Shown here: positions 12,830 through 24,500 of the stretch, in pieces | Layout of the letters: each line of letters starts with the position of its first letter | How positions within the stretch are numbered: the first letter of the stretch is position 1 | Program-made: the position numbers and the translations under genes | Source: Methanomicrobium antiquum | Lineage (GTDB): Archaea > Halobacteriota > Methanomicrobia > Methanomicrobiales > Methanomicrobiaceae | Length of the DNA stretch: 64,000 bases | NCBI RefSeq assembly: GCF_029633915.1 | Contig: NZ_CP091092.1 | Span: forward strand, 2,232,001 to 2,296,000 | Direction of reading: 5' to 3' | Notes under the pieces: generated by a model | The model's database searches: none | What the model was told of the DNA's origin: nothing | The model's input: the letters and a program-made list of their open reading frames with translations, nothing else

Positions 12830-14137
12830 TCATTTTTTAGCAGTCCTGTTTCTGCGTTTCATGAAGAGACTTACTAATCCGGCACTAAAAATTACAGTAA
12901 ATAAAGGGATTGGTGATTGTTTTGTCTGCTTTAGTGGAGATTTTTCATCCGGTATAACATCTGATTGTTTAGTATCAGATGAGAGGTCTGTAAGTCCTTT
13001 CAAACCGGCATCGGGATTACAAAAATAATATAACTCATTATCTGTGATTGCCACAATACCGGTGCCTTCGGATGATATGGCAACACCTTTTATCCGGTTA
13101 TCACAGGAAAATGTCCCTGTTTCGTTTCCTTTATCATTTAAAAGAATGAGAGACTCGCCCATGGCAAAGACCGAATGCCGGCCGTTTTTGGATAATGAAA
13201 AGACCGTGGCGGATATCGGATGGGGCAAAGTCTGCTGGTATTTTGTAATATAATTCCACCTGAGTCCTCCTGACTGGTTATAGCCAGAGACGGCTTTGGT
13301 TGTTCGTAACACTATCTCTTCTCCATTATAGGAAATCTTGCTTTCTGCAAATTTTGTTCCTTGCGGTAAAGTCTTGTTCCAGAGAATATTTCCTATATTA
13401 TCCAGAAAATAAAGCCTTCTTTGGGATGGACTGGACAGGCAGACATAATTTCCGTCATCTGAAATTTTTATATCACAGGACTCCAAAAATTTATTTTCCC
13501 ATAATATGGAACCGCTTTGGTTCAGGCAGAATACTCCACCGTTTTCTGTTACAGCGACAATATATTCGCAATCGTCTGATATGTCAAGCGAGATTACAGG
13601 AGAGATAACCGGGTGATTCCACATGATTGATCCATTCCTATTTACGCATGTGATATTTTCATGAGACCCGAATACACTGTATAAACCGTCTGACGAGACT
13701 GCCAGATTGTATATAAATGTCCTGATTGAATGATTCCATAATTCCTCACCCTGCCTGTTTAAGAGGGTTAACCTTTTTTTGGGATTTGATGCTGGAGAAG
13801 AACCCGCATCTGAAATTACAAGATAGTTTCCGTCGGGTGAAAGGCTTAAAGCGAGAATTTCAGAGTTTTCATTTCTGGCTGTTTTGTTCCAAAAAACTAT
13901 TCCTGACTCATCTATGAAATATATGCTGCCGTCAAATGTTGCTGTAGCAACGCTGCTGCCATCATCCGAAATGGCCAGAAATTCTAAAGAGTGACCGCCT
14001 GTATCCTGAATGTTCTGGTCAATTTCGGTAAGGTTTGATACCCACAGGGGAGATAATGCCTGGGCGGGAATAATGATGACTGCGATTAATATTAAAAAAA
14101 TTAGAAATTTGGGTGAATATCCGGGTTTAATAAACAC
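12830..14137 (-). CDS. secreted beta-propeller surface protein with C-terminal sorting-like signal
   Basis: The 435-residue protein has a signal peptide (FLILIAVIIIPAQA) and then a series of blade-like repeats of the PQQ/WD type. Examples are YFIDESGIVFWNKTA, LALSLSPDGNYLVIS, LLNRQGEELWNHSI and CLNQSGSILWENKF, with about seven blades. The C terminus has a polar linker, then SPIPLFTVIFSAGLVSLF and a basic MKRRNR tail. That tripartite layout is seen in archaeosortase substrates or in plain membrane anchors. It starts 15 bp after the stop of the cassette gene at 14153, so it is the second gene of that operon. Confidence 0.82.
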   Translation of the reverse strand: MFIKPGYSPKFLIFLILIAVIIIPAQALSPLWVSNLTEIDQNIQDTGGHSLEFLAISDDGSSVATATFDGSIYFIDESGIVFWNKTARNENSEILALSLSPDGNYLVISDAGSSPASNPKKRLTLLNRQGEELWNHSIRTFIYNLAVSSDGLYSVFGSHENITCVNRNGSIMWNHPVISPVISLDISDDCEYIVAVTENGGVFCLNQSGSILWENKFLESCDIKISDDGNYVCLSSPSQRRLYFLDNIGNILWNKTLPQGTKFAESKISYNGEEIVLRTTKAVSGYNQSGGLRWNYITKYQQTLPHPISATVFSLSKNGRHSVFAMGESLILLNDKGNETGTFSCDNRIKGVAISSEGTGIVAITDNELYYFCNPDAGLKGLTDLSSDTKQSDVIPDEKSPLKQTKQSPIPLFTVIFSAGLVSLFMKRRNRTAKK

Positions 14138-14152
14138 TCCTCCTGCTTAATT

Positions 14153-14656
14153 TTAAATATTGATTTCATATGTGGGATGTGAAATAATGATATATTGTTC
14201 CTCTGGAAGAAACTTCCAAATTCTCTGGATGATTTCATTGACTCTATTATAATGATAGTCATTAATACGAGCCTCTGTGATTGCCTTTATCTGAGTTGTT
14301 TTTAATGAACTATCTTTATCAATACTTTTCGAGATAGATCTATATTGATGTAACCGGGTTAATCTCTCAGAAATCTTTTTACTCTCAGTTTCAGTCATCC
14401 CGTCCAGATATGTTACTTTTGGCATTTTTACTATCATTTCTGAGAGCTCTTTGTCACTTAATCTGTTTCCTTCAGTATCAAAAAGATACGGGCTTCTCTT
14501 TAATTCTGTATCGATTCCTACTATGTCTTCATTGGAGGAAAGATTTTCATTTAAATGATTTTCAGATTCTGAACTAACTGCCGGAACAAAAATCGCTCCC
14601 AATAGTGCCATAACCATCAGCAGGTAAAAAGCCCGCATTACTTTTTTCGTTTTCAT
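14153..14656 (-). CDS. exported protein with shared signal-peptide module (cassette U1)
   Basis: The start at 14656 (MKTKKVMRAF) is chosen because GGAG lies 8-12 bases upstream. Two upstream in-frame ATGs are less likely. The 167-residue product has the signal peptide MRAFYLLMVMALLGAIFVPA at residues 7-26, almost identical to those of the genes at 16880, 19332 and 20908. The mature part is charged and mainly helical, and no family was recognised. It heads an operon with the beta-propeller gene. Confidence 0.8.
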   Translation of the reverse strand: MKTKKVMRAFYLLMVMALLGAIFVPAVSSESENHLNENLSSNEDIVGIDTELKRSPYLFDTEGNRLSDKELSEMIVKMPKVTYLDGMTETESKKISERLTRLHQYRSISKSIDKDSSLKTTQIKAITEARINDYHYNRVNEIIQRIWKFLPEEQYIIISHPTYEINI

Positions 14657-14886
14657 GGTTTTCGTCTCCATTTTTTTTTTCATGCCCCCGGAGACTAAAA
14701 ATACAGAAGCTTTTTTGTAGGTTTAAGCTTAATTACTGTTATGCCTCCGGGCAGGCAGGGGTTTTCGCTGTTTCTGAAACTAACTCTGGCAAAAATCCCT
14801 GTGCAACACCTTTTTGATGCTATAGTGAGGACTTTGTTTTAGTATAATAAATGGATTATGTCCATATTATCGAACTGTTTGTCTTT
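14657..14886 (-). promoter_or_regulatory. conserved leader U1 (promoter and structured 5' UTR)
   Basis: Read on the minus strand, this segment has a TATA-like TTATTATACT (14841-14850). About 160 transcribed bases follow, with a 14-bp imperfect stem made by 14788-14801 and 14756-14769. A GC-rich segment and the GGAG ribosome site come next. It is nearly identical to leader U4 over about 145 bp (14741-14885), and identity stops abruptly at 14886. The transcription start and folding are inferred. Confidence 0.7.
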
Positions 14887-15060
14887 TATTCCAATACTAA
14901 TAACGGATGTTAAAATTGTGGAGATATTTTCAGGATTATTTATTTTTATTCCTGAAAGAATTACAGGAATTATGTGAATTGCCCTTGTAAGAATAAAATG
15001 TAAGGATTTCTGTTTTATTTTTATCATTATTCAGAACCGGTTAATACTGGGTAAATCAAC
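14887..15060. other. gap without supported gene
   Basis: The stretch between leader U1 and the lipoprotein gene at 15063 is AT-rich. A 62-residue minus-strand frame (14839-15027) runs into leader U1 and lacks a ribosome site, so it is not called. It may be remnant coding sequence left when the operons were rearranged. Confidence 0.4.
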
Positions 15061-15062
15061 TG

Positions 15063-15611
15063 TCATGTGGGAAACCATATTTTACTGCTATTGAATGCAA
15101 AAGCGGTACCGTTCCCGTCATAAAGGCGTGTGTAATTTTCCAGTCGTTCCTTTCCATAAAGATCTCCGGGTATAACAACCTCAAATCTCTCAACAATTTC
15201 CTGCGTTTCATTGACATAGAAATAAACATCAATGCCCCGGTAAACAACCCAAAGCGTTGGTCCGGAGCTCTTATTCCATCCTTTTGGTCTGGATGGCATA
15301 AAATCAATTACTCCTTTGATATCGCTTCCATGACTAAGCATCTCCTGAACATTTTTATCGCACAGGCCAATTCGTGCCACAAAAGATGCATTTGTAATAA
15401 TCGATTCGGAACCGAGATATGGCACAGTAGAGACATTAACCCCGGAGATCCATTCATCAGAGAGATTGCATTGTGTCGTATTATTAATTAATTGAGACGG
15501 CTGAACTGCCGTTTTGGTGTCAGTATCAATACAGCATGCGGAAAAAATAACGAGAAAAAGCGTAAAAAGCAAAAGAAAAAATATTTTTTTTAGAATATTA
15601 TAGTTAGTCAT
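15063..15611 (-). CDS. lipoprotein, unknown function
   Basis: The 182-residue protein has a signal peptide ending in FSACC (Cys near residue 26), so it is probably lipid-anchored outside the cell. The mature part includes LIDEWISG-like polar sequence, VGARIGL-type beta strands and a region LWVVYRGIDVYFYVNETQEIVERFEVVIPGD-like in character (pattern of alternating hydrophobic residues). No family was recognised. It overlaps the preceding gene by 8 bp and is the last gene of the U2 operon. Confidence 0.75.
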   Translation of the reverse strand: MTNYNILKKIFFLLLFTLFLVIFSACCIDTDTKTAVQPSQLINNTTQCNLSDEWISGVNVSTVPYLGSESIITNASFVARIGLCDKNVQEMLSHGSDIKGVIDFMPSRPKGWNKSSGPTLWVVYRGIDVYFYVNETQEIVERFEVVIPGDLYGKERLENYTRLYDGNGTAFAFNSSKIWFPT

Positions 15612-16209
15612 ACAGCCCCTCCGTATCTATTATTGAATAGGACGGATACAGGTAGAAGATGGTTGTATCATTGTAAATCATAGCTACTGTTGAATTTGAA
15701 CTATTACTCTTTATATTAAACACATACCACCGGTTTGTCCCTTTGTCCTTTACTTTATGATAACCTAAAGGAAGCGGACCGGAAACCGGTTCTGATATCC
15801 ATCCGACCGCATCACTGTAACCTCTGGCAGCAGTCATACTCTGTTCATCGATACTCAGATAAAATGACAGCTGATCTTTCTTAAACTCCAATTCTGCAGA
15901 TATTTTATCTGTCATATCTTCATTAACAGGTCCTGATACAGAAGCAATATTCCATCCGTTTTCAAGAAGAACCCCTGCCCGCGGATCATCTAATGCAATA
16001 TCAATAATGGATTCAATTTTAGTGGGAGAATTTTCAATATCACTTACCTCAATCGCCGACAGGTTGAGAGAAATTGATGAGCTCGCGTTATTGTAATAAA
16101 AAGTAACTGGGCCGGTTTCACTTGCCTGAACGCTGCCGGGTTCACCGGTACATCCCGTCGTGACCAGGACTGCCGTAAAAACAAAAATAACAGCGAGTAT
16201 TTTTTTCAT
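15604..16209 (-). CDS. lipoprotein, unknown function
   Basis: The ATG at 16209 (MKKILAVIFVFTAVLVTTGC) with GAGGGT upstream is preferred over a TTG at 16224. The 201-residue product has a clear lipobox (TTGC) and a beta-rich mature part that includes GPVTFYYNNASSSISLNLSA and WISEPVSGPLPLGYHKV. No family was recognised. It lies in the U2 operon between two other lipoprotein genes, and the downstream gene overlaps its end. Confidence 0.78.
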   Translation of the reverse strand: MKKILAVIFVFTAVLVTTGCTGEPGSVQASETGPVTFYYNNASSSISLNLSAIEVSDIENSPTKIESIIDIALDDPRAGVLLENGWNIASVSGPVNEDMTDKISAELEFKKDQLSFYLSIDEQSMTAARGYSDAVGWISEPVSGPLPLGYHKVKDKGTNRWYVFNIKSNSSNSTVAMIYNDTTIFYLYPSYSIIDTEGLYD

Positions 16210-16326
16210 TACCCTCACCCTCAACTTCTCCGAAATTATTTAGGCGCAGATGCAGCAGCATCTTCATTTTGCATGCATGACATATTGCTGGCAAATATTT
16301 TAATATCATATTTAATCAAATCAATA

Positions 16327-16695
16327 TTATTTGCTCTTATTGATTATTCCAGGATCAACCGTTGCAGGATCTATTGTTCCAAATTCACTTCCGATTTGAA
16401 TTACTTTTCCACTATAGTCTATTAATATGGAATATAAAATTGGTCTTTTCTGTCCGGTGTCTATTGAGATTTTCACTATATAGACTTCCTGTTTGTCCGA
16501 TTCACCCGGGGCATAATATTGAGCCAGTCCATAATCAAGAATTTCATATTCATATCCATTAATGAGACTCGCTACCTCAGGATCATCAAGTATTATAGTT
16601 GTTAATTCATCGCCGGAGAACTCTTTTTCAGATATGCATCCTGAAGACAGAATAATGGCGACAAAAAAAAATAGTAAAATGTGGTGATAGATCAT
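16327..16695 (-). CDS. small lipoprotein, translationally coupled to cassette peptide
   Basis: The 122-residue protein has the signal MIYHHILLFFFVAIILSSGC with a lipobox. A short mature domain follows (ILDDPEVASLINGYEYEILDY, YIVKISIDTGQKRPILYSI) that may be cystatin- or PepSY-like by pattern only. Its ATG overlaps the stop of the upstream cassette peptide (ATGA at 16692-16695). Its GGAGG ribosome site lies inside that peptide's last codons, so it should be translated efficiently. Confidence 0.75.
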   Translation of the reverse strand: MIYHHILLFFFVAIILSSGCISEKEFSGDELTTIILDDPEVASLINGYEYEILDYGLAQYYAPGESDKQEVYIVKISIDTGQKRPILYSILIDYSGKVIQIGSEFGTIDPATVDPGIINKSK

Positions 16696-16880
16696 TTCAT
16701 CCTCCTCAATTCAATCAATAATGGAGGTGTTCTTTCCAATAATGTCTTTTCATCAACTTTATCAGCACTGGTTTCTGATAGAACTTCCTTATCAGCACTA
16801 ACCGCCGGAACGAAAATCGCTCCGATAAGTGCCATTACCAAAAGCAGGCTCAACGCCCGCGATACTTTCTTTTCTTTCAT
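16692..16880 (-). CDS. short exported peptide with shared signal module (cassette U2)
   Basis: The start at 16880 (MKEKKVSRALSLLLVMALIG) follows GGAG, as in the other cassettes. The product has 62 residues: the shared signal peptide ending GAIFVPAVSA and a mature peptide of about 33 residues, rich in Glu and Lys, ending LIELRRMK. LLERTPPLLI resembles LKRSPYLFD of cassette U1. It may be a frameshift-shortened homologue or a true small secreted peptide. It heads an operon of three lipoprotein genes. Confidence 0.65.
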   Translation of the reverse strand: MKEKKVSRALSLLLVMALIGAIFVPAVSADKEVLSETSADKVDEKTLLERTPPLLIELRRMK

Positions 16881-17090
16881 GTTTTTCGTCTCCATTCTTT
16901 TTCATGCCTCCGGAGACAGGATCGTCAAAGGTTTCAAGTAATTAAAAACCCTAATTACAGTTTGCCCCCGGGCATGCAGCGGGGTCCGGTCAGTTCCTCA
17001 AAGATTATGGCGGGGCCCCTGCAACACCTCTTCTGGATGTTCCATGGATGACTTTTCGTTCAGCACAATATAAATTCCATAGCCCGATCG
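16881..17090 (-). promoter_or_regulatory. conserved leader U2 (promoter and 5' UTR)
   Basis: This is the most diverged of the four leaders. On the minus strand it keeps a TATA-like AATTTATATTGT (17064-17075), the GTGTTGCAGGGG block, CCCCGCTGC on the other arm, GCCCGGGGGC and the GGAGAC ribosome site. The central stem is shorter but GCAG/CTGC pairing is kept although the loop sequence differs. Confidence 0.6.
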
Positions 17091-17121
17091 TTGAATTGTT
17101 TCAATATCATCAAAATTAAGT

Positions 17122-18108
17122 TTAATTTGGAATCTTACTGGTTCTTAAAAACGATTTGGCTATAAATACAACATCTTTAGATTTTGAAATATTTTCATAC
17201 TGCTGATCAAAGTTTTCAAATGCACTATTATTGAATTGTTTGTCCTCAATAATAACCAGTCTGGATGGATAAATTATAATCCCTTCATTTTTAAGTGAAT
17301 CGGCTATTAAAACCTCTGCCTCATTCGACAGAGAATTTAAACTTACAGGATAATAATTTGTCTGGCTATTGTTAAAATTGATTTTTTCATAAAATATCCA
17401 TCCGTATGTTGAAAGATCTATGTAATGATTCAAATCTTCCGGTATCTTATCAGAATCTGAAGATAAATTAACATAATAATTCATATAATATGTATCCATA
17501 GAGTCCCGGATTCTAAAAGCAGAAATTGAACCAAATTCATTATTCAATAACTGATTTATTTCTCCATCGGTTGTATCATTTTTAAAACCGATTGTCGGGT
17601 ACCAATATCTCTCTGAATTATCAGCATTACTATAATACGGATCGCAGAACCTGTTTTTTGATCTCACCTTTACGACGGATATAAAATCATAATCATCATT
17701 TATCTGGTTAAGAGATGATACAATCCGTTGTTTTACATCAGAACTGTCTCCGCCATAACAAATCATAATTTTTAAATCTTCATCTTCATTCAAATTCCTG
17801 CCATAACTGATTTTCCATACAATATCCATATCTCCAAAATATTTATTCATCAGAAATTTAATTTCAGAATAATCTACACTGGAATTTAAAATCAATTCAG
17901 GGTACCAATCTTCACCGAGCATTTCTGCATCTGACTTTGTGAACAGGTATTTTTCTGTTGGACTTTCTAATGAACAGATCTCCTGTGTACATTGATTTTC
18001 TGCCTCATCTCCACTTAAAATCCAGTTTATCGATAAAATCACGATTAAGACTATAACTATAACGATAATTAACTCCGATAATTTCCGGGGATTTTTTATA
18101 AATTTCAT
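17122..18108 (-). CDS. membrane-anchored extracellular protein, unknown
   Basis: The 328-residue protein has one N-terminal transmembrane segment (about 13-32, LIIVIVIVLIVILSINWIL). The large extracellular part appears to contain two related halves. Each has a WYPELILNSSVDYSEIKFLM-like segment (about 68) and WYPTIGFKNDTTDGEINQLL (about 170). No family was recognised. It follows the C39-like protease gene by 33 bp in the U3 operon and could be its partner or anchor. No good ribosome site is seen. Confidence 0.7.
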   Translation of the reverse strand: MKFIKNPRKLSELIIVIVIVLIVILSINWILSGDEAENQCTQEICSLESPTEKYLFTKSDAEMLGEDWYPELILNSSVDYSEIKFLMNKYFGDMDIVWKISYGRNLNEDEDLKIMICYGGDSSDVKQRIVSSLNQINDDYDFISVVKVRSKNRFCDPYYSNADNSERYWYPTIGFKNDTTDGEINQLLNNEFGSISAFRIRDSMDTYYMNYYVNLSSDSDKIPEDLNHYIDLSTYGWIFYEKINFNNSQTNYYPVSLNSLSNEAEVLIADSLKNEGIIIYPSRLVIIEDKQFNNSAFENFDQQYENISKSKDVVFIAKSFLRTSKIPN

Positions 18109-18141
18109 GTTTGGAAAATATTTATTAAATTAATTATTTAA

Positions 18142-19332
18142 TTACCAGTCAACAAAAATCCATTCCTGAATCCCGGCTGTATCAAAATTTTCCCAATATC
18201 TCTCAGAGAATATTTCATCACCAATCATATATTTTCCAGGATCATATACTCTAAAATACTCAGAATCACCAGAATAAAAATAACCGGCAATTGCTCTTGC
18301 ATGTGCACCAAATCCGGCAGACACTCCCGAGGCAATTGGATTTTCATTATCACGGATATGATCTTTGCCTTGATAATATACTATCTGCCCGCCACTCCTA
18401 TAAAGCGTAGGAAGTTGAAGTCCGTCAGGATCATTTGTATAATATTCTAATTCCGAATCATGACCCGGAGTACCTTTCGGGTTACCATACTGATCAATTG
18501 AGTCCATAATTTCAGCTATAGTCGTATATGAATCAGAAACTCCAAACCAGTATGCAATCATTTTTCCTGTAGTAACAGTACACCAATATTCATTTGGTTG
18601 TGTGAGAAGATTTGCCTGATTCCATAAATCCATATATTCCGAAGCTTTAGATACTCCTGCTTTCTCATTAAATTGTTCATCCCATGATTTGATCTTCTCA
18701 TCAATATTTGAAGGATCAAGGCTGGCATAATATGAATGCCCATCTATCGATTTGTTTTTATCAGTACTGTCAAATATGGTTTCACCGTCCTGATCTACGA
18801 TTATTTCCCTCAATTGGTCATTATGTCCTTTTATTTCCAACATTACGTATAAATATTGATAATCATATTCAACAAGTTGTGAGCTTATGATCTTTTCTGA
18901 AGACAACGCCTTCTTCTCAAAACTCTTTACTGAATCGCTTAGTAATTTATCATAGCATATTTCATCAGGACTATCCATAATTATTGATACCGGCCCGCCA
19001 AGGACTTTGCTGGCAGTTGCCTTTATATAACCCAGATTTTCTCCATTTTTTTCAATTGGGAATTGGTAATATAAAAGCAGGCCATTTATATCATATATCA
19101 AAACAGGTTCATTTTTAAGCATATCAACTGAATAAACATCCTTTGAAATTGCGCCGCTATAAATAAATTTATTGAATTCATTTTTAGCTCCGATAAACGC
19201 ATTATCCTGAGATACTGAATATTTTTCCACAGTTTCAATATCCACCGCACTAACCGCCGGAACGAAAATCGCCCCGACAAGAACCATTACCAATAGCAGG
19301 TAAAAAGCCCGCATTACATTTTTCGTTTTCAT
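18142..19332 (-). CDS. exported C39-like cysteine peptidase with shared signal module (cassette U3)
   Basis: The 396-residue protein begins with the shared signal peptide (MRAFYLLLVMVLVGAIFVPA). It has an N-terminal domain of about 170 residues and a C-terminal papain-fold domain of the peptidase C39-like type. The likely catalytic Cys lies in WCTVTTGKMIAYWFG (about 250), His in GAHARAIAGYF (about 345) and Asp in FRVYDPG. It probably cuts proteins or peptides outside the cell. GGAG before the ATG supports the start. It is the first gene of a two-gene operon. Confidence 0.78.
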   Translation of the reverse strand: MKTKNVMRAFYLLLVMVLVGAIFVPAVSAVDIETVEKYSVSQDNAFIGAKNEFNKFIYSGAISKDVYSVDMLKNEPVLIYDINGLLLYYQFPIEKNGENLGYIKATASKVLGGPVSIIMDSPDEICYDKLLSDSVKSFEKKALSSEKIISSQLVEYDYQYLYVMLEIKGHNDQLREIIVDQDGETIFDSTDKNKSIDGHSYYASLDPSNIDEKIKSWDEQFNEKAGVSKASEYMDLWNQANLLTQPNEYWCTVTTGKMIAYWFGVSDSYTTIAEIMDSIDQYGNPKGTPGHDSELEYYTNDPDGLQLPTLYRSGGQIVYYQGKDHIRDNENPIASGVSAGFGAHARAIAGYFYSGDSEYFRVYDPGKYMIGDEIFSERYWENFDTAGIQEWIFVDW

Positions 19333-19535
19333 GTTTTCGTCTCCTTTTATTTTTCATGTCCCCGGAGACAGGATCGTCAAAGGTTTCAAGTAGTTTTAAG
19401 CTTAATTACAGTTATGCCCCCGGGCACGCAGGGGTTTTCGCCGTTCTTGATCGGTCGGGCAAAACCCTGCAACACCTTTTAGATGCTACATTGATGACTT
19501 TGATTCTGCATAATAAATTTATTATGTCCAAATCA
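19333..19535 (-). promoter_or_regulatory. conserved leader U3 (promoter and structured 5' UTR)
   Basis: On the minus strand there is a TATA-like AAATTTATTATG (19509-19520) and the GGTGTTGCAGGG block. A strong stem forms between 19457-19470 and 19428-19442. A GC-rich segment, TTACTTGAAACC-type sequence shared with U2 and U4, and AAAAGGAGACG before the ATG follow. The stem loop differs from U1/U4 while the arms remain complementary. Confidence 0.68.
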
Positions 19536-19623
19536 TGCAACTGAGTATTTCTCCAATTTGGATGTCTTTAAACCTTTTTAGCAGATTTCATATTCCGGTA
19601 AAAACTATCTACACATTATTCCT

Positions 19624-20061
19624 TCAGGAAATACCTGATATAAAAATCAAAATCCAGATTACAGATAATATTCCTGCAATAATCAATTGTAATTTTTCCT
19701 TCCCGGAAGCCAAAAAACCAATTAATCCAAGGCAGATTAATAGCATCAGATTATACCCCGTGAATAATAGTAAATGACTCAGATTCAAAAAATCATGAAA
19801 ATTAGCCGATAAAAGAATTAAAAAAATCAAAAATGCATAAGATACGATTCCGGAAAGAGGAGCACGGAATCTGTCACCCGTTTTATATCCATAAAAAAAG
19901 ACTCCGGTTGGATATAAAATAACTAATAAAATACCACTTATTCCTGAATAAAATGAATTTTCCATACTTAACAAATAATATACAATACAAAGAACAGCAA
20001 AAAACAAAATATAAGAAAAAAGGAGGATGTTGTTTTTTTCAAACAGTTTTTGATATCTCAT
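19624..20061 (-). CDS. four-helix membrane protein, duplicated family
   Basis: The 145-residue protein has four hydrophobic segments (about 14-32, 40-58, 70-88 and 95-140). Between the second and third is a conserved hydrophilic GYKTGDRFRAPLSGI. It is about 60-65% identical by eye to the 145-residue protein at 23937. It starts 8 bp after the stop of the cassette gene at 20069, so the two are coupled. Function is unknown. Pairing with an exported protein would suit an immunity, chaperone or export role. Confidence 0.75.
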   Translation of the reverse strand: MRYQKLFEKNNILLFSYILFFAVLCIVYYLLSMENSFYSGISGILLVILYPTGVFFYGYKTGDRFRAPLSGIVSYAFLIFLILLSANFHDFLNLSHLLLFTGYNLMLLICLGLIGFLASGKEKLQLIIAGILSVIWILIFISGIS

Positions 20062-20068
20062 CCTTCAT

Positions 20069-20908
20069 TCACCAGTAAAAGATTCTTGTACACATCCCAT
20101 TATTATACGGGCTTGCTACATAATTGTTGAGAGAATAATCATCTTCATAGACATGCCACAAGGTATCCCCTACTTGATCATAAAATCCTGCAACTTCCTC
20201 TTCTGCATTTTCAAATCCGTCAGCCTCATGAGGAGCCCATGTGTCATGATGAGCTGCTCCGATAACATCTCCATCATTCATCTGCCATAATCTGAGGTGC
20301 CAGCCACCGAAAACCCTTAGAGGATCGTCTGCGAGTCCATCATCCGCTTTCCATCCACTGTCATAAATATAGTATGTGTCTTCAGCAATAATATCCCACC
20401 ATCCTTCATTGAGAATCTCCGTTTTCACTGTATTTAGGTTGTTGCTTTCCCATGCTATATTGACAGGTTCATCTAATTGATGATATGAATCTCCAACTTT
20501 TTCCCAAATCCACTGAGGATAATCATAGCTTTTAGAATACACAGGAGGATCATTTTCCAATGTGAAAACATCATATGAGGATTTTGTAGAAGTATAATGT
20601 TTGCCTTCAACAAGGTTTAATTTTTTTACATAATCCAAATCAACTTTATAAGAAATAGTTTTCTCTAATTGCCCCACATTGAACCTTGCTTTCAATTCTG
20701 AGCCAGAATATATGTTTTTAACATATAATATCTCATCACTGACATAATATTCAGTTGTATGTTCTACAAGAATTGTATGTTCTTTTTCCCATTCACTTAC
20801 TATTCTGGGACTGGTTTTTTCTGCACTTACAGCCTGTACCAGGACTACACTTACTATAAGTGCTATAAATAGCAGGCTCAAAGCCCGCATACCTTTTTTC
20901 GTTTTCAT
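20069..20908 (-). CDS. exported protein with shared signal module (cassette U4)
   Basis: The 279-residue protein has the shared-type signal peptide (MRALSLLFIALIVSVVLVQA). The mature protein is rich in Trp and Tyr. The C-terminal half includes DDPLRVFGGWHLRLWQ and DVIGAAHHDTWAPHEADGFE. That HLRLW...GAAHHD pattern recalls the LssY C-terminal domain, but the match is tentative. AAAAGGAGATG before the ATG supports the start. A duplicate of its 3' half, with an internal deletion, lies at 24379-24500. Confidence 0.75.
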   Translation of the reverse strand: MKTKKGMRALSLLFIALIVSVVLVQAVSAEKTSPRIVSEWEKEHTILVEHTTEYYVSDEILYVKNIYSGSELKARFNVGQLEKTISYKVDLDYVKKLNLVEGKHYTSTKSSYDVFTLENDPPVYSKSYDYPQWIWEKVGDSYHQLDEPVNIAWESNNLNTVKTEILNEGWWDIIAEDTYYIYDSGWKADDGLADDPLRVFGGWHLRLWQMNDGDVIGAAHHDTWAPHEADGFENAEEEVAGFYDQVGDTLWHVYEDDYSLNNYVASPYNNGMCTRIFYW

Positions 20909-21125
20909 GTTTTCATCTCCTTTTATTTTTCATGCCCCCCGGAGACAGGATCGTCAAAGGTTTCAAGTAGTTTTTGAGCCCAACTACATTATGCCTCCGG
21001 GCAGGCAGGGGTTTTCGCCGTTTCTGAAACTAACTCTGGCAAAAATCCCTGTGCAACACCTTTTTGATGCTACAGTGAGGACTTTGCTTTAGTATAATAA
21101 ATGGATTATGTCCATATTATCGAAC
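20909..21125 (-). promoter_or_regulatory. conserved leader U4 (promoter and structured 5' UTR)
   Basis: On the minus strand this has the TATA-like TTATTATACT (21091-21100) and a 14-bp imperfect stem between 21038-21051 and 21006-21019. A smaller hairpin GTAGTT/AACTAC, a CCGG-rich block and AAAAGGAGATG follow. It differs from U1 at only a few positions over about 145 bp, although the downstream proteins are unrelated. Confidence 0.7.
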
Positions 21126-21212
21126 TGTTTGTCTTTCAGTTCGATGATTTGGACATAAAAGGTAAATATCACTAATATCCATATTAAAATATATAAATTT
21201 GGAAGTGGTTTT

Positions 21213-21668
21213 ATGCTAAGGAAATTAGGAATTTCTGCATTATTATTGATGTTTTGTATATCATTCGCATCAGGCGCGGCGGCTGAAGAAAAAACTGATG
21301 CCTTTTATACAGGTGATTTGGAAGGCTATACCATAACGCCGGCAAAAGACTCCGTTGGAGATTCAGGTCAGAAGTATATCTATGATACAATTATGCAGGG
21401 TGAGACCAACTGGCACACCAAAAATGTCAATTCACATGTTACTGTCCTAAATGTTGATTTAAACTGGGGAGATTCGTCGGATTCCTTAAGGCTTGGAATA
21501 TACACTCCTGACTGGCAGTACCTCGGAGAATTTTATGATAGTGCAGATGGAAAAGTAAATGGAAGAATCAATATTGATATCTCAAATCCGGCCGGCATAG
21601 CAGAGGGAACCTGGCATTATGAAGTCTATGGATATAGCGTTTTCGAAACTGAAGATTATTATCTATAA
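21213..21668 (+). CDS. small secreted beta-sandwich protein
   Basis: The 151-residue protein has a cleavable signal peptide (ISALLLMFCISFASGAAA). The beta-rich domain contains ITPAKDSVGDSGQKYIYDTI, VTVLNVDLNWGDSSDSLRLG and GTWHYEVYGYSVF. Its pattern is like pre-peptidase C-terminal or P-type jelly-roll domains. It lies 22 bp before a membrane regulator gene whose short outer segment shares GYTI(T/S)P. The two may form a sensor pair. Confidence 0.72.
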   Translation: MLRKLGISALLLMFCISFASGAAAEEKTDAFYTGDLEGYTITPAKDSVGDSGQKYIYDTIMQGETNWHTKNVNSHVTVLNVDLNWGDSSDSLRLGIYTPDWQYLGEFYDSADGKVNGRINIDISNPAGIAEGTWHYEVYGYSVFETEDYYL

Positions 21669-21690
21669 TATCTTTTTAAACTGATTATTT

Positions 21691-22431
21691 ATGCAGACAG
21701 CGGATTTCTTCTTTATTCTTTTCGTTTTATCAATTTTCACAGCAGGTGCTCAGGCAGCAACGGGCGGATATACAATCTCTCCTCACACAGATTTTCCGGC
21801 CCTTATTGAAAGCGGACTTGTTGATTCATCAGGCGCTGATTCAACTATTACATTCTGGCAGCTGCCTCTCTGGATTCAGATATTTTATGTGGCAGGGATT
21901 CTTGCCGCTTTTTTGGGACTTTTTAAGGTTTTTCCCATCGTTTTGGCCAAAGTCGGCGGAATTTTGGAAAATGAAAACCGGAAGAATATCTATGAGTATA
22001 TCTCTCAAAATCCGGGAAGTAATATAGCTGATATATCCGCGAGCCTGCATATAAACCGGGGCTCTGTAAAATATCATCTTTCAAGACTTGGTTTAGAGAA
22101 CAGAGTAGTTTCATTAAGAGCAGGAAAATATAAGCGGTTGTATCAAAATTCCAAAACATACGATAAATATGAAAAAATCATTATATCATGTCTGAGAAAT
22201 GAAACAGGAAAAAAGCTTCTGGTAAGCATACTGGAAAATCCCGGAATTACAAATCAGGCTCTATCAGAAAGATTTGATCTTAGTAAAAGCACAATCCACT
22301 GGTATCTTGAGAATTTCTGTCGTCTGGATATTATAACTCCTGTAACTGATGGAAAATACAAAAAGTGGTTTATAAAACCCGTTGTGAGGAGAACTCTTAA
22401 AAAAACTATTTATCTCCGGGATATTCATTGA
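21691..22431 (+). CDS. membrane-bound regulator with two winged-helix domains
   Basis: The 246-residue protein has an N-terminal signal or first membrane segment (residues 5-23), a short outer loop of about 40 residues, and a second membrane segment (about 58-85). Two winged helix-turn-helix domains then lie on the cytoplasmic side. The first includes NPGSNIADISASLHINRGSVKYHLSRL (about 112-138) and the second NPGITNQALSERFDLSKSTIHWYLENF (about 185-211). It looks like a one-component regulator that carries an outside signal to DNA. Targets are unknown, and the adjacent exported-protein operons are candidates. Confidence 0.8.
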   Translation: MQTADFFFILFVLSIFTAGAQAATGGYTISPHTDFPALIESGLVDSSGADSTITFWQLPLWIQIFYVAGILAAFLGLFKVFPIVLAKVGGILENENRKNIYEYISQNPGSNIADISASLHINRGSVKYHLSRLGLENRVVSLRAGKYKRLYQNSKTYDKYEKIIISCLRNETGKKLLVSILENPGITNQALSERFDLSKSTIHWYLENFCRLDIITPVTDGKYKKWFIKPVVRRTLKKTIYLRDIH

Positions 22432-23936: not shown

Positions 23937-24374
23937 TCAGGAAATGCCGGACAAAAAAATCAGAATCCAGATTATACATAAAATACCGGATATAATCATT
24001 TGCATCTTTTCTTTTTGAGAAGCTATATATCCGATAAATCCAAGGCAGATTAAAAGCGTCATATGGTATCCTGTGAATAAAAGTAAATAATTCTGACTCA
24101 GATGATCCTGAAAATTACCAGATAAAATAATTAAAAGAATCAAAAATGCATAGGATATGATTCCAAAAAGAGGAGCACGAAATTTGTCGCCTGTTTTATA
24201 TCCATAGAAGAAGGCTCCAATTGGATAGAGAATAATTAAAAATATTCCTATGAATCCGGAATAAAATGAATTTTTTGAGCTTAAATGAAAGTATACTATA
24301 CAAAGTATGGCAAAAAAACAGAGAGATGAGATAAGAATAAGATTTTTTCTATCAAAGATATCTAAAACATTCAT
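23937..24374 (-). CDS. four-helix membrane protein, paralogue of 19624
   Basis: The 145-residue protein is a clear paralogue of the one at 19624. Shared blocks are SFYSGxxGI, ILYPxGxFFYGYKTGD, FRAPLxGIxSYAFLI, LLLFTGY and the C-terminal WILIFxSGIS. It has four hydrophobic segments. Its upstream partner survives only as the deleted fragment at 24379-24500, so this gene was kept after its partner decayed. Function is unknown. Confidence 0.72.
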   Translation of the reverse strand: MNVLDIFDRKNLILISSLCFFAILCIVYFHLSSKNSFYSGFIGIFLIILYPIGAFFYGYKTGDKFRAPLFGIISYAFLILLIILSGNFQDHLSQNYLLLFTGYHMTLLICLGFIGYIASQKEKMQMIISGILCIIWILIFLSGIS

Positions 24375-24378
24375 CCTT

Positions 24379-24500
24379 ATTCACCAGTTAAAGATTCTTG
24401 TACACATTCCATTATTATAAGAGCCTTCAGAGGATCATCTGAAAGTCCGTCATCTGCTTTCCATCCACTACTATCATCAATATAATATGTGTCTTTTTGC
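24379..24500 (-). pseudogene. internally deleted remnant of the 20069-type exported protein gene
   Basis: The minus strand still encodes SGWKADDGLSDDPLKA, matching SGWKADDGLADDPLRV of the intact protein. The reading then jumps by about 270 bp to the sequence for the last residues (AATAATGGAATGTGTACAAG), now in a shifted frame. The 5' half, signal peptide and leader are missing. Together with the paralogue at 23937 it shows that the two-gene unit was duplicated. Confidence 0.85.

Follow-up and report, generated by a model that had tools for sequence, protein, structure and literature searches.

A predicted antisense-RNA-controlled array of export cassettes in Methanomicrobium antiquum

The minus-strand operons at 12830-21125 of the DNA analysed here are read, with a probability of about 0.6, as an array of export cassettes under antisense-RNA control, with a common 5' module, a divergent regulator and effector-immunity gene pairs. 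This DNA (the window, 64,000 nt, whose numbering is used throughout) corresponds to positions 2,232,001-2,296,000 of the forward strand of contig NZ_CP091092.1 in the M. antiquum assembly GCF_029633915.1 (Table 1). The parts of this reading differ in strength. Both the regulatory module and its relationship to the MM2442/sRNA162 locus of Methanosarcina mazei are highly probable, and regulation by the module is well supported by sequence comparison. An effector-immunity function of the cassettes is put at a little under an even chance, and the cargos may be toxic.

Cargos 1 to 4 (genes starting at 20908, 19332, 16880 and 14656) have in common a TATA box, a leader, a GGAG site and a signal peptide, as an earlier sequence-only reading had reported. 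The shared module is real and also larger than described there, since it runs in order from an upstream palindrome or half-site through the TATA box, three hairpins (P0, P1 and P2), an anti-SD and the SD to the signal peptide. Absent from that reading are the predicted antisense promoter and RNA switch, the regulator operon, and the precedent known from Methanosarcina, the MM2442/sRNA162 locus (PMC3510493). The copies of the signal-peptide block (111 nt) stand at 100, 80, 77 and 62% identity, and the promoter-leaders (157 nt) of cargos 4 and 1 are 96% identical. The covariance model R2 gave the four leaders 85.8 to 124.3 bits, and nowhere else in the window did the score exceed 11.3 bits. The module of cargo 4 is a mosaic, nearly identical to the copy of cargo 1 from promoter to P2 and nearer to those of cargos 3 and 2 in the signal-peptide block, so that recombination inside the module has probably taken place.

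Covariance models found the module in Methanomicrobiales, Methanosarcinaceae and Methanoperedens, with two methanogen classes represented: R2 matched 79 of 393 Halobacteriota genomes and R1 70 of 232 Methanomicrobiales genomes, the highest copy number being 27 in Methanosarcina spelaei. It recurs there before many cargo families, bearing out the idea of a fixed 5' module with swapped 3' parts. Almost all the RBS-linked ORFs behind the module (101 of 103) were signal-peptide-like, and intact cargos are exported-type proteins of about 170 to 480 aa, most of whose mature parts have no TM segments. The leader DNA pattern had many bacterial matches, yet those confirmed by covariance were nearly all archaeal; the two bacterial exceptions, L192 and L163, probably represent misbinned archaeal contigs. 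The pattern also occurred in two viral contigs, which the covariance model did not confirm. Four loci (L074, L075, L077 and L078) carry a second, short leader type with the same signal peptide and no R2 match.

Table 1. Features of the array and its surroundings (window numbering).
Feature	Position	Strand	Remarks
Beta-propeller surface protein downstream of cargo 4	12830..14137	-	
Cargo 4, 167 aa, of the cargo 3 family, with a frameshift and a truncation	14153..14656	-	
Cargo 4 leader	14664..14826	-	P2 14742-14753; anti-SD 14690-14696
Lipoprotein, orphan partner	15063..15611	-	84% identical to partner of L063 cargo
Lipoprotein, orphan partner-family member	15604..16224	-	
Lipoprotein, kin of partner of full-length cargo 3 family	16327..16695	-	
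Cargo 3, 62-aa remnant of exported family of ~320 aa	16692..16880	-	
Cargo 3 leader	16888..17046	-	P2 16963-16974; anti-SD 16912-16918
Cargo 3 leader, antisense TATA box (predicted)	16933..16940	+	
Cargo 2 partner, membrane-anchored, 328 aa	17122..18108	-	
Cargo 2, exported C39-like cysteine peptidase, 396 aa	18142..19332	-	
Cargo 2 leader	19339..19492	-	P0 19469-19489; P1 19431-19467; P2 19415-19426; anti-SD 19364-19370; SD and next bases 19334-19344
Cargo 2 leader, antisense TATA box (predicted)	19385..19392	+	
Cargo 2 promoter	19509..19543	-	TATA box 19509-19517; upstream element 19522-19543
Cargo 1 partner, multi-TM membrane protein, 145 aa	19624..20061	-	
Cargo 1, intact exported Trp-rich protein, 279 aa	20069..20908	-	
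Cargo 1 leader	20915..21076	-	P0 21053-21073; P1 21008-21049; P2 20992-21003; anti-SD 20941-20947; SD and next bases 20910-20920
Cargo 1 leader, antisense TATA box (predicted)	20962..20969	+	TTCAAGTA; ~31 nt before predicted antisense start (P2)
Cargo 1 sense TATA box	21093..21101	-	
Inverted repeat between divergent promoters	21106..21154	.	GTCCAAATCATCGAACTG / CAGTTCGATAATATGGAC; candidate regulator site
Small exported protein, first operon gene	21213..21668	+	MM2440 position
Membrane-anchored winged-helix regulator, HTH_24, arsR-like	21691..22431	+	MM2441 position
Orphan copy of cargo 1 partner	23937..24374	-	66% identity; dN/dS 0.24
Cargo 1-type gene remnant	24390..24480	-	two 41-nt pieces, 95% and 88% identity

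The mature proteins behind the module had been taken as unrelated, which does not hold for all four. Cargos 3 and 4 are homologous: both belong to a family of exported proteins of about 320 aa and lack its C-terminal part (59% identity over 22 aa, E 6e-5, and 50% over 106 aa, E 1e-28, respectively). The reading frame of cargo 4 shifts near family residue 116, and the supposed separate 33-residue peptide of cargo 3 is a remnant of this family. Cargo 1 has a relative in another genome (G016) with a 90% identical mature part; a protein search of the genome contigs with cargo 1 as query gave no relatives. In cargo 2, residues C251, H344 and D364 are invariant across three relatives; its C39 Pfam match is weak (E 0.015), and a profile search of solved structures with its family gave thiol-protease matches that were weak throughout (E 0.025). 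AlphaFold models of cargos 1 and 2 (pLDDT 37 and 40) were unusable.

Cargo families and partner families are linked, and many dissimilar cargo families have one layout. Relatives of the cargo 2 partner again lie downstream of the cargo 2 family in other loci, and those of the beta-propeller protein are found behind different cargos in L064 and L080. Of the three lipoproteins previously assigned to cargo 3, the one at 16327-16695 is related to the partner of the full-length cargo 3 family, and the other two are orphans: that at 15604-16224 matches the partner family of its neighbor at 15063-15611 (E 2e-9), and the L063-type cargo, whose partner the latter resembles, is absent from the array. 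A fifth, decayed cassette, beyond the region of the earlier reading, consists of a cargo 1-type remnant and an intact partner gene, which is under purifying selection as judged from its dN/dS. The window shows two cases of a lost cargo whose partner is retained, one at 24390 and one at 16880, and others occur in L062 and L076; this survival of partners after repeated cargo deletion is reminiscent of orphan immunity genes. The proposal of effectors and partners fits cargo-partner linkage and partner retention, but half of the four mature proteins belong, in decayed form, to a single family.

Alternatively, the cargos could be exported enzymes that turn over nutrients or envelope material, with partners serving as co-factors, chaperones or surface anchors, under the same leader control and without conflict. 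We regard this as a real possibility with the odds against it. Peptidase-like domains occur in some cargos, and several look like enzymes of common peptidase types, with matches to reprolysin at E 9e-9, to C39 at E 1e-9 and to transglutaminase at E 8e-12; MM2441 has been tied to methanol and methylamine use in M. mazei (PMC3510493). Most cargos have no recognised domain; cargo domain searches found no toxin-specific family and no nuclease domains, and PADLOC and NCBIfam searches gave no useful names. A co-factor would, however, be expected to be lost with its enzyme, while these partners repeatedly outlive deletion of the cargo under purifying selection, and a single layout serves cargo families that are dissimilar.

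The leader RNA has a conserved structure in which two mutually exclusive helices compete for the anti-SD. Standard pairs occupy 91.5% of cells in the aligned leaders, against 41 to 53% with slid partners, and double-sided changes affect four of six upper P1 pairs and two of five SD-hairpin pairs. Compared with column shuffles, paired cells and double-change cells were both in excess, and the count of pairs with double changes showed no excess (267/500). When the isolated RNA was folded computationally with a forced block of P0-P2, the unpaired fraction of the SD fell from 0.40 to 0.07 (p 4e-14), compared with 0.43 free and 0.42 blocked in the shuffled-linker control. Blocking P0-P1 alone had no effect on the SD, and about a third of the leaders changed little. 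Likening an antisense RNA to the P0-P2 block predicts burial of the SD, and on this model antisense-induced SD closure is somewhat favored.

A TATA-like box lies 27 to 34 nt before the P2 start on the antisense strand in 83 of 87 copies, within the conserved linker of the leader (mean score, 7.03 of 8 versus 5.89 shuffled); the motif is lost in the leader of cargo 4. The distance from P2 to the inferred sense start is about 65 to 75 nt. The leader carries, in short, a conserved predicted antisense promoter, with a start near P2 and an overlap of about 65 nt. In M. mazei, sRNA162 has a 65-nt antisense overlap with the 5'UTR of MM2442 and binds it in vitro; it was described as confined to Methanosarcina with this 5'UTR as its single cis target, and a duplicated locus, sRNA171, cross-binds (PMC3510493). 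In Methanosarcina-type genomes, the four best matches to the sRNA162 family (RF02792) were all antisense to R2 matches, and three of four genomes reached the RF02792 cut-off. None of the 232 Methanomicrobiales genomes had RF02792, the 3' half of which was not found there. The Rfam search of the window gave sub-threshold sRNA162 matches only, the leaders scoring 25 bits against a gathering cut-off of 78 bits. These sub-threshold matches were the lead to the MM2442/sRNA162 precedent.

Mutually exclusive expression-platform helices in a widely conserved leader are also reminiscent of a metabolite riboswitch, in which a ligand would switch the leader from one fold to the other and the match to an antisense RNA would be a coincidence. 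We set this explanation aside as improbable because the linker motif is a TATA box at a fixed distance on the opposite strand. Moreover, an antisense RNA and its binding are known for the M. mazei relative (PMC3510493), the target genes have export rather than a pathway in common, and neither a conserved ligand pocket nor an Rfam riboswitch match was seen. Least probable is plain tandem duplication, in which a gene and its promoter were copied together and the common 5' part, with no role of its own, reflects gene conversion or a recent common origin: it would account for the near-identical promoter-leaders of cargos 1 and 4 and for the homology of cargos 3 and 4, but the module is kept across families, well outside close relatives, with compensatory changes before cargos unrelated in sequence, and the predicted antisense promoter and SD switch are retained.

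The divergent operon at 21213-22431, outside the region described earlier, is part of the locus. It is bicistronic with an arsR-type regulator in second position, a layout matching the published MM2440-MM2441. A wHTH gene stands divergently, 317 to 666 nt upstream, at 15 loci and on the same strand at 1, and the palindrome is stronger at loci with a divergent wHTH gene (p 1e-5). The winged-helix regulator probably binds the candidate palindrome.

According to the antisense-control reading, an RNA of about 65 nt would begin at P2 and run back across P2, P1 and P0. Its pairing with P2 would free the anti-SD (UGYCUCC) from the 3' arm of P2 (GGRGGCA), and the freed anti-SD would shut on the SD (GGAG), turning translation off; when this RNA is missing, P2 could keep the anti-SD and the SD would stay open. 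One antisense RNA may serve several copies because they are alike enough. The membrane-anchored regulator would bind the palindrome, the cargos would be exported effectors from which the anchored or lipoprotein partner protects the producer, and repeated cargo loss with the partner kept, together with module recombination, would reshape the arrays.

Like MM2440-MM2441/sRNA162/MM2442, the locus combines a long 5'UTR under an antisense RNA of similar length, here predicted, with an arsR-type regulator second in a bicistronic operon. It differs in occurring in two classes with up to 27 copies per genome, and in its almost invariably exported products, predicted SD switch and anchored partners. 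Polymorphic toxins and effector-immunity arrays, such as the Vibrio T6SS arrays (PMC5361080), offer a parallel in the constant N-terminal signal peptide, the variable cargo, the adjacent family-linked partner, the retained orphan partners and the recombined shared sequence. In contrast to polymorphic toxins, the delivery part here is a signal peptide only, a predicted RNA switch controls expression, and toxicity is a conjecture. In type I toxin-antitoxin systems, an antisense RNA acts on the 5' part of the mRNA, folding governs SD access and the product is a small, usually hydrophobic toxic peptide. The predicted antisense RNA and SD access by folding are shared with such systems, whereas the cargos here are large and exported and have a separate protein partner.

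These results would turn sRNA162 from an antisense RNA described as Methanosarcina-specific, whose single target leader had no known function, into the representative of a regulon that spans two methanogen classes and takes in many cassettes for exported proteins, with a folding mechanism for sRNA162-type antisense RNAs that is open to test. They also propose candidate exported effector-immunity pairs for methanogens. The module is present in culturable, genetically tractable Methanosarcina strains, which makes the claims on regulation and effector-immunity testable. More speculatively, and with the balance against it, the cassettes may form a two-class archaeal conflict system of exchangeable effector-immunity units, placed behind a common antisense-controlled switch and signal peptide, whose antisense RNAs cross-regulate the whole repertoire; if so, cross-regulation would possibly keep the number of effectors made at once low.

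The four minus-strand genes and their common 5' region were found in the window (positions 2,232,001-2,296,000; the genome is a single contig of 2,438,126 bases) as the sequence-only reading had described them. The encoded signal peptides match MKxKKGMRALSLLLVMALLGAIFVPAVSA. The 14656 copy is a mosaic, whose promoter-leader resembles that of 20908 and whose signal-peptide block resembles those of 16880 and 19332. The same genome carries two additional copies of leader and signal peptide, and more copies of the signal peptide behind a different short leader. This GCATTATCGCAGATTAAGGTTTGCATGCCGG-type leader precedes the same signal peptide at L074, L075, L077, and L078, in this genome and in genome G024, and likewise heads cargo-partner pairs, reprolysin-like cargos among them; a search of these four loci with R2, a covariance model of the long leader, gave no match.

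Positions of the features discussed, by locus
Feature	Locus	Position	Strand
Beta-propeller protein	window	12830-14137	
Codons R-A-L-S-x-L able to form a hairpin	window	14610-14656	
Cargo gene starts	window	14656, 16880, 19332, 20908	minus
Divergent regulator operon	window	21213-22431	
Cargo remnant, partner intact	window	24390	
Two additional leader and signal-peptide copies	same genome	1.81 Mb	
GCATTATCGCAGATTAAGGTTTGCATGCCGG-type short-leader loci	same genome	1.96-1.97 Mb, 2.17-2.18 Mb	
Two tandem beta-propeller copies	L080	6574-9143	
Cargo remnants of 45-49 aa (G024)	L078	15007, 17720	
Cargo remnant of 45-49 aa (G024)	L077	3882	

Searching related genomes, the check proposed with the initial reading, revealed the module in 70 of 232 genomes of the Methanomicrobiales, covering 18 of 40 genera (covariance model R1). 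A pattern search widened this range to Methanosarcina, Methanoperedens, and other Methanosarcinales, and R2 matched 79 of 393 Halobacteriota genomes, with 27 places in Methanosarcina spelaei; copy numbers per genome are lower bounds wherever strict filters were applied. Among the RBS-linked genes behind distinct leaders, 101 of 103 have a signal-peptide-like start, and the two exceptions look decayed. The neighboring background is also rich in such genes (40/66), so that the contrast in export rests on near-universality behind the leaders. Archaeal leaders with signal peptides also occur on contigs binned as WOR-3 and Syntrophomonadaceae (L192 and L163), which are probably wrongly binned archaeal DNA.

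The related-genome regions contained 30 full and 12 truncated leader copies. Hairpins P0, P1, and P2 and an SD hairpin emerged from the alignment of 27 leaders, with pairing in 91.5% of cells, versus 41 to 53% with slid partners. Double-sided changes are located in upper P1 and the SD hairpin. The number of pairs with double changes did not exceed column shuffles in this alignment, and support for the structure therefore comes from P1, the SD hairpin, and the comparison with slid partners. An alternative pairing joins the P2 3' arm with the anti-SD and was the minimum-energy fold in both leaders examined. According to ViennaRNA partition functions for 81 leaders, the unpaired probability of the SD was 0.37 in the free leader, 0.05 with P0-P2 blocked, and 0.38 with P0-P1 alone blocked. 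For 99 leaders, blocking lowered it from 0.40 to 0.07, versus 0.43 to 0.42 in the shuffled-linker control (P = 4e−14), and the effect was also present in the Methanosarcina-type subset. Since blocking P0-P2 closes the SD in computed folding, an antisense RNA with its start at P2 would be positioned to free the anti-SD, and a switch of the SD by such an RNA is predicted by these computations.

A weak Rfam match on the strand opposite the leader gave the first indication of sRNA162. In M. mazei, this RNA has its start within the 5'UTR of MM2442; the overlap is 65 nt, and in vitro the two RNAs bind each other. Its homologue sRNA171 binds this 5'UTR as well (PMC3510493). In Methanosarcina-type genomes, the four best matches to RF02792, the sRNA162 family, lie antisense to R2 matches at similar offsets. 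Many weaker matches are placed likewise. Of 87 aligned copies, 83 carry a TATA-like box on the antisense strand, 27 to 34 nt ahead of the P2 start (mean match 7.03 of 8 versus 5.89 when shuffled). In the window, the box is present in three leaders and gone from the decayed 14656 copy. Members of the Methanomicrobiales did not reach the RF02792 cutoff, and their loci are therefore described as the same kind of locus as sRNA162/MM2442 but not as members of that family.

The signal-peptide codons R-A-L-S-x-L of Methanomicrobiales can themselves form an RNA hairpin, in the window and at the signal-peptide starts of other loci. It is 4.8 kcal/mol stronger than synonymous shuffles, an excess larger than at every other place scanned, although the sequences are related and represent few independent events. 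The pairing register seems different between genera.

A divergent membrane-anchored winged-helix protein is encoded 317 to 666 nt upstream of the leader at 15 loci, from this genome to M. spelaei and Methanoperedens, versus one in the same-strand control (scope: 65 of 117 leaders, with sufficient upstream sequence or a match). It is absent at later copies within an array. In the window, a small exported protein is encoded first and the regulator second, an order matching MM2440-MM2441 of M. mazei. A palindrome is stronger at leaders adjoining the regulator, and a proximal half-site element is common to many other copies at the same position.

By sequence, the cargo proteins group into about 20 clusters; some are reprolysin-like, C39-like, or transglutaminase-like, and many have no family. 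A subset has a cysteine directly behind the signal-peptide region, a PAMAC-type start (L098, L128, L145, L192, L309, and L316); L309 and L316 coincide with sRNA162 matches, and MM2442 may accordingly belong to this subset. A lipoprotein or membrane protein closely follows most intact cargos, and partner families vary together with cargo families. At L080, two tandem copies of the window's beta-propeller protein (61 to 62% identity) stand behind one cargo. In G024, the short cargo remnants are near-identical and turn up several times.

Cargos are lost while partners are kept. The partner next to the remnant at 24390 shows a dN/dS of 0.24 between partner copies, and the 16880 cargo remnant retains its lipoprotein. 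At L062, the cargo is reduced to its last 51 residues, followed by a 97%-identical partner, and L076 has also lost the cargo and retained the partner. The same asymmetry, effector lost and partner kept, was described in Vibrio effector-immunity arrays (PMC5361080). Mainly from this pattern, we infer that the cassettes are effector-immunity pairs, and a function in conflict is plausible. The regulatory mechanism is predicted and open to testing, and the regulatory module itself, which is well supported, turns one published case into a large family.
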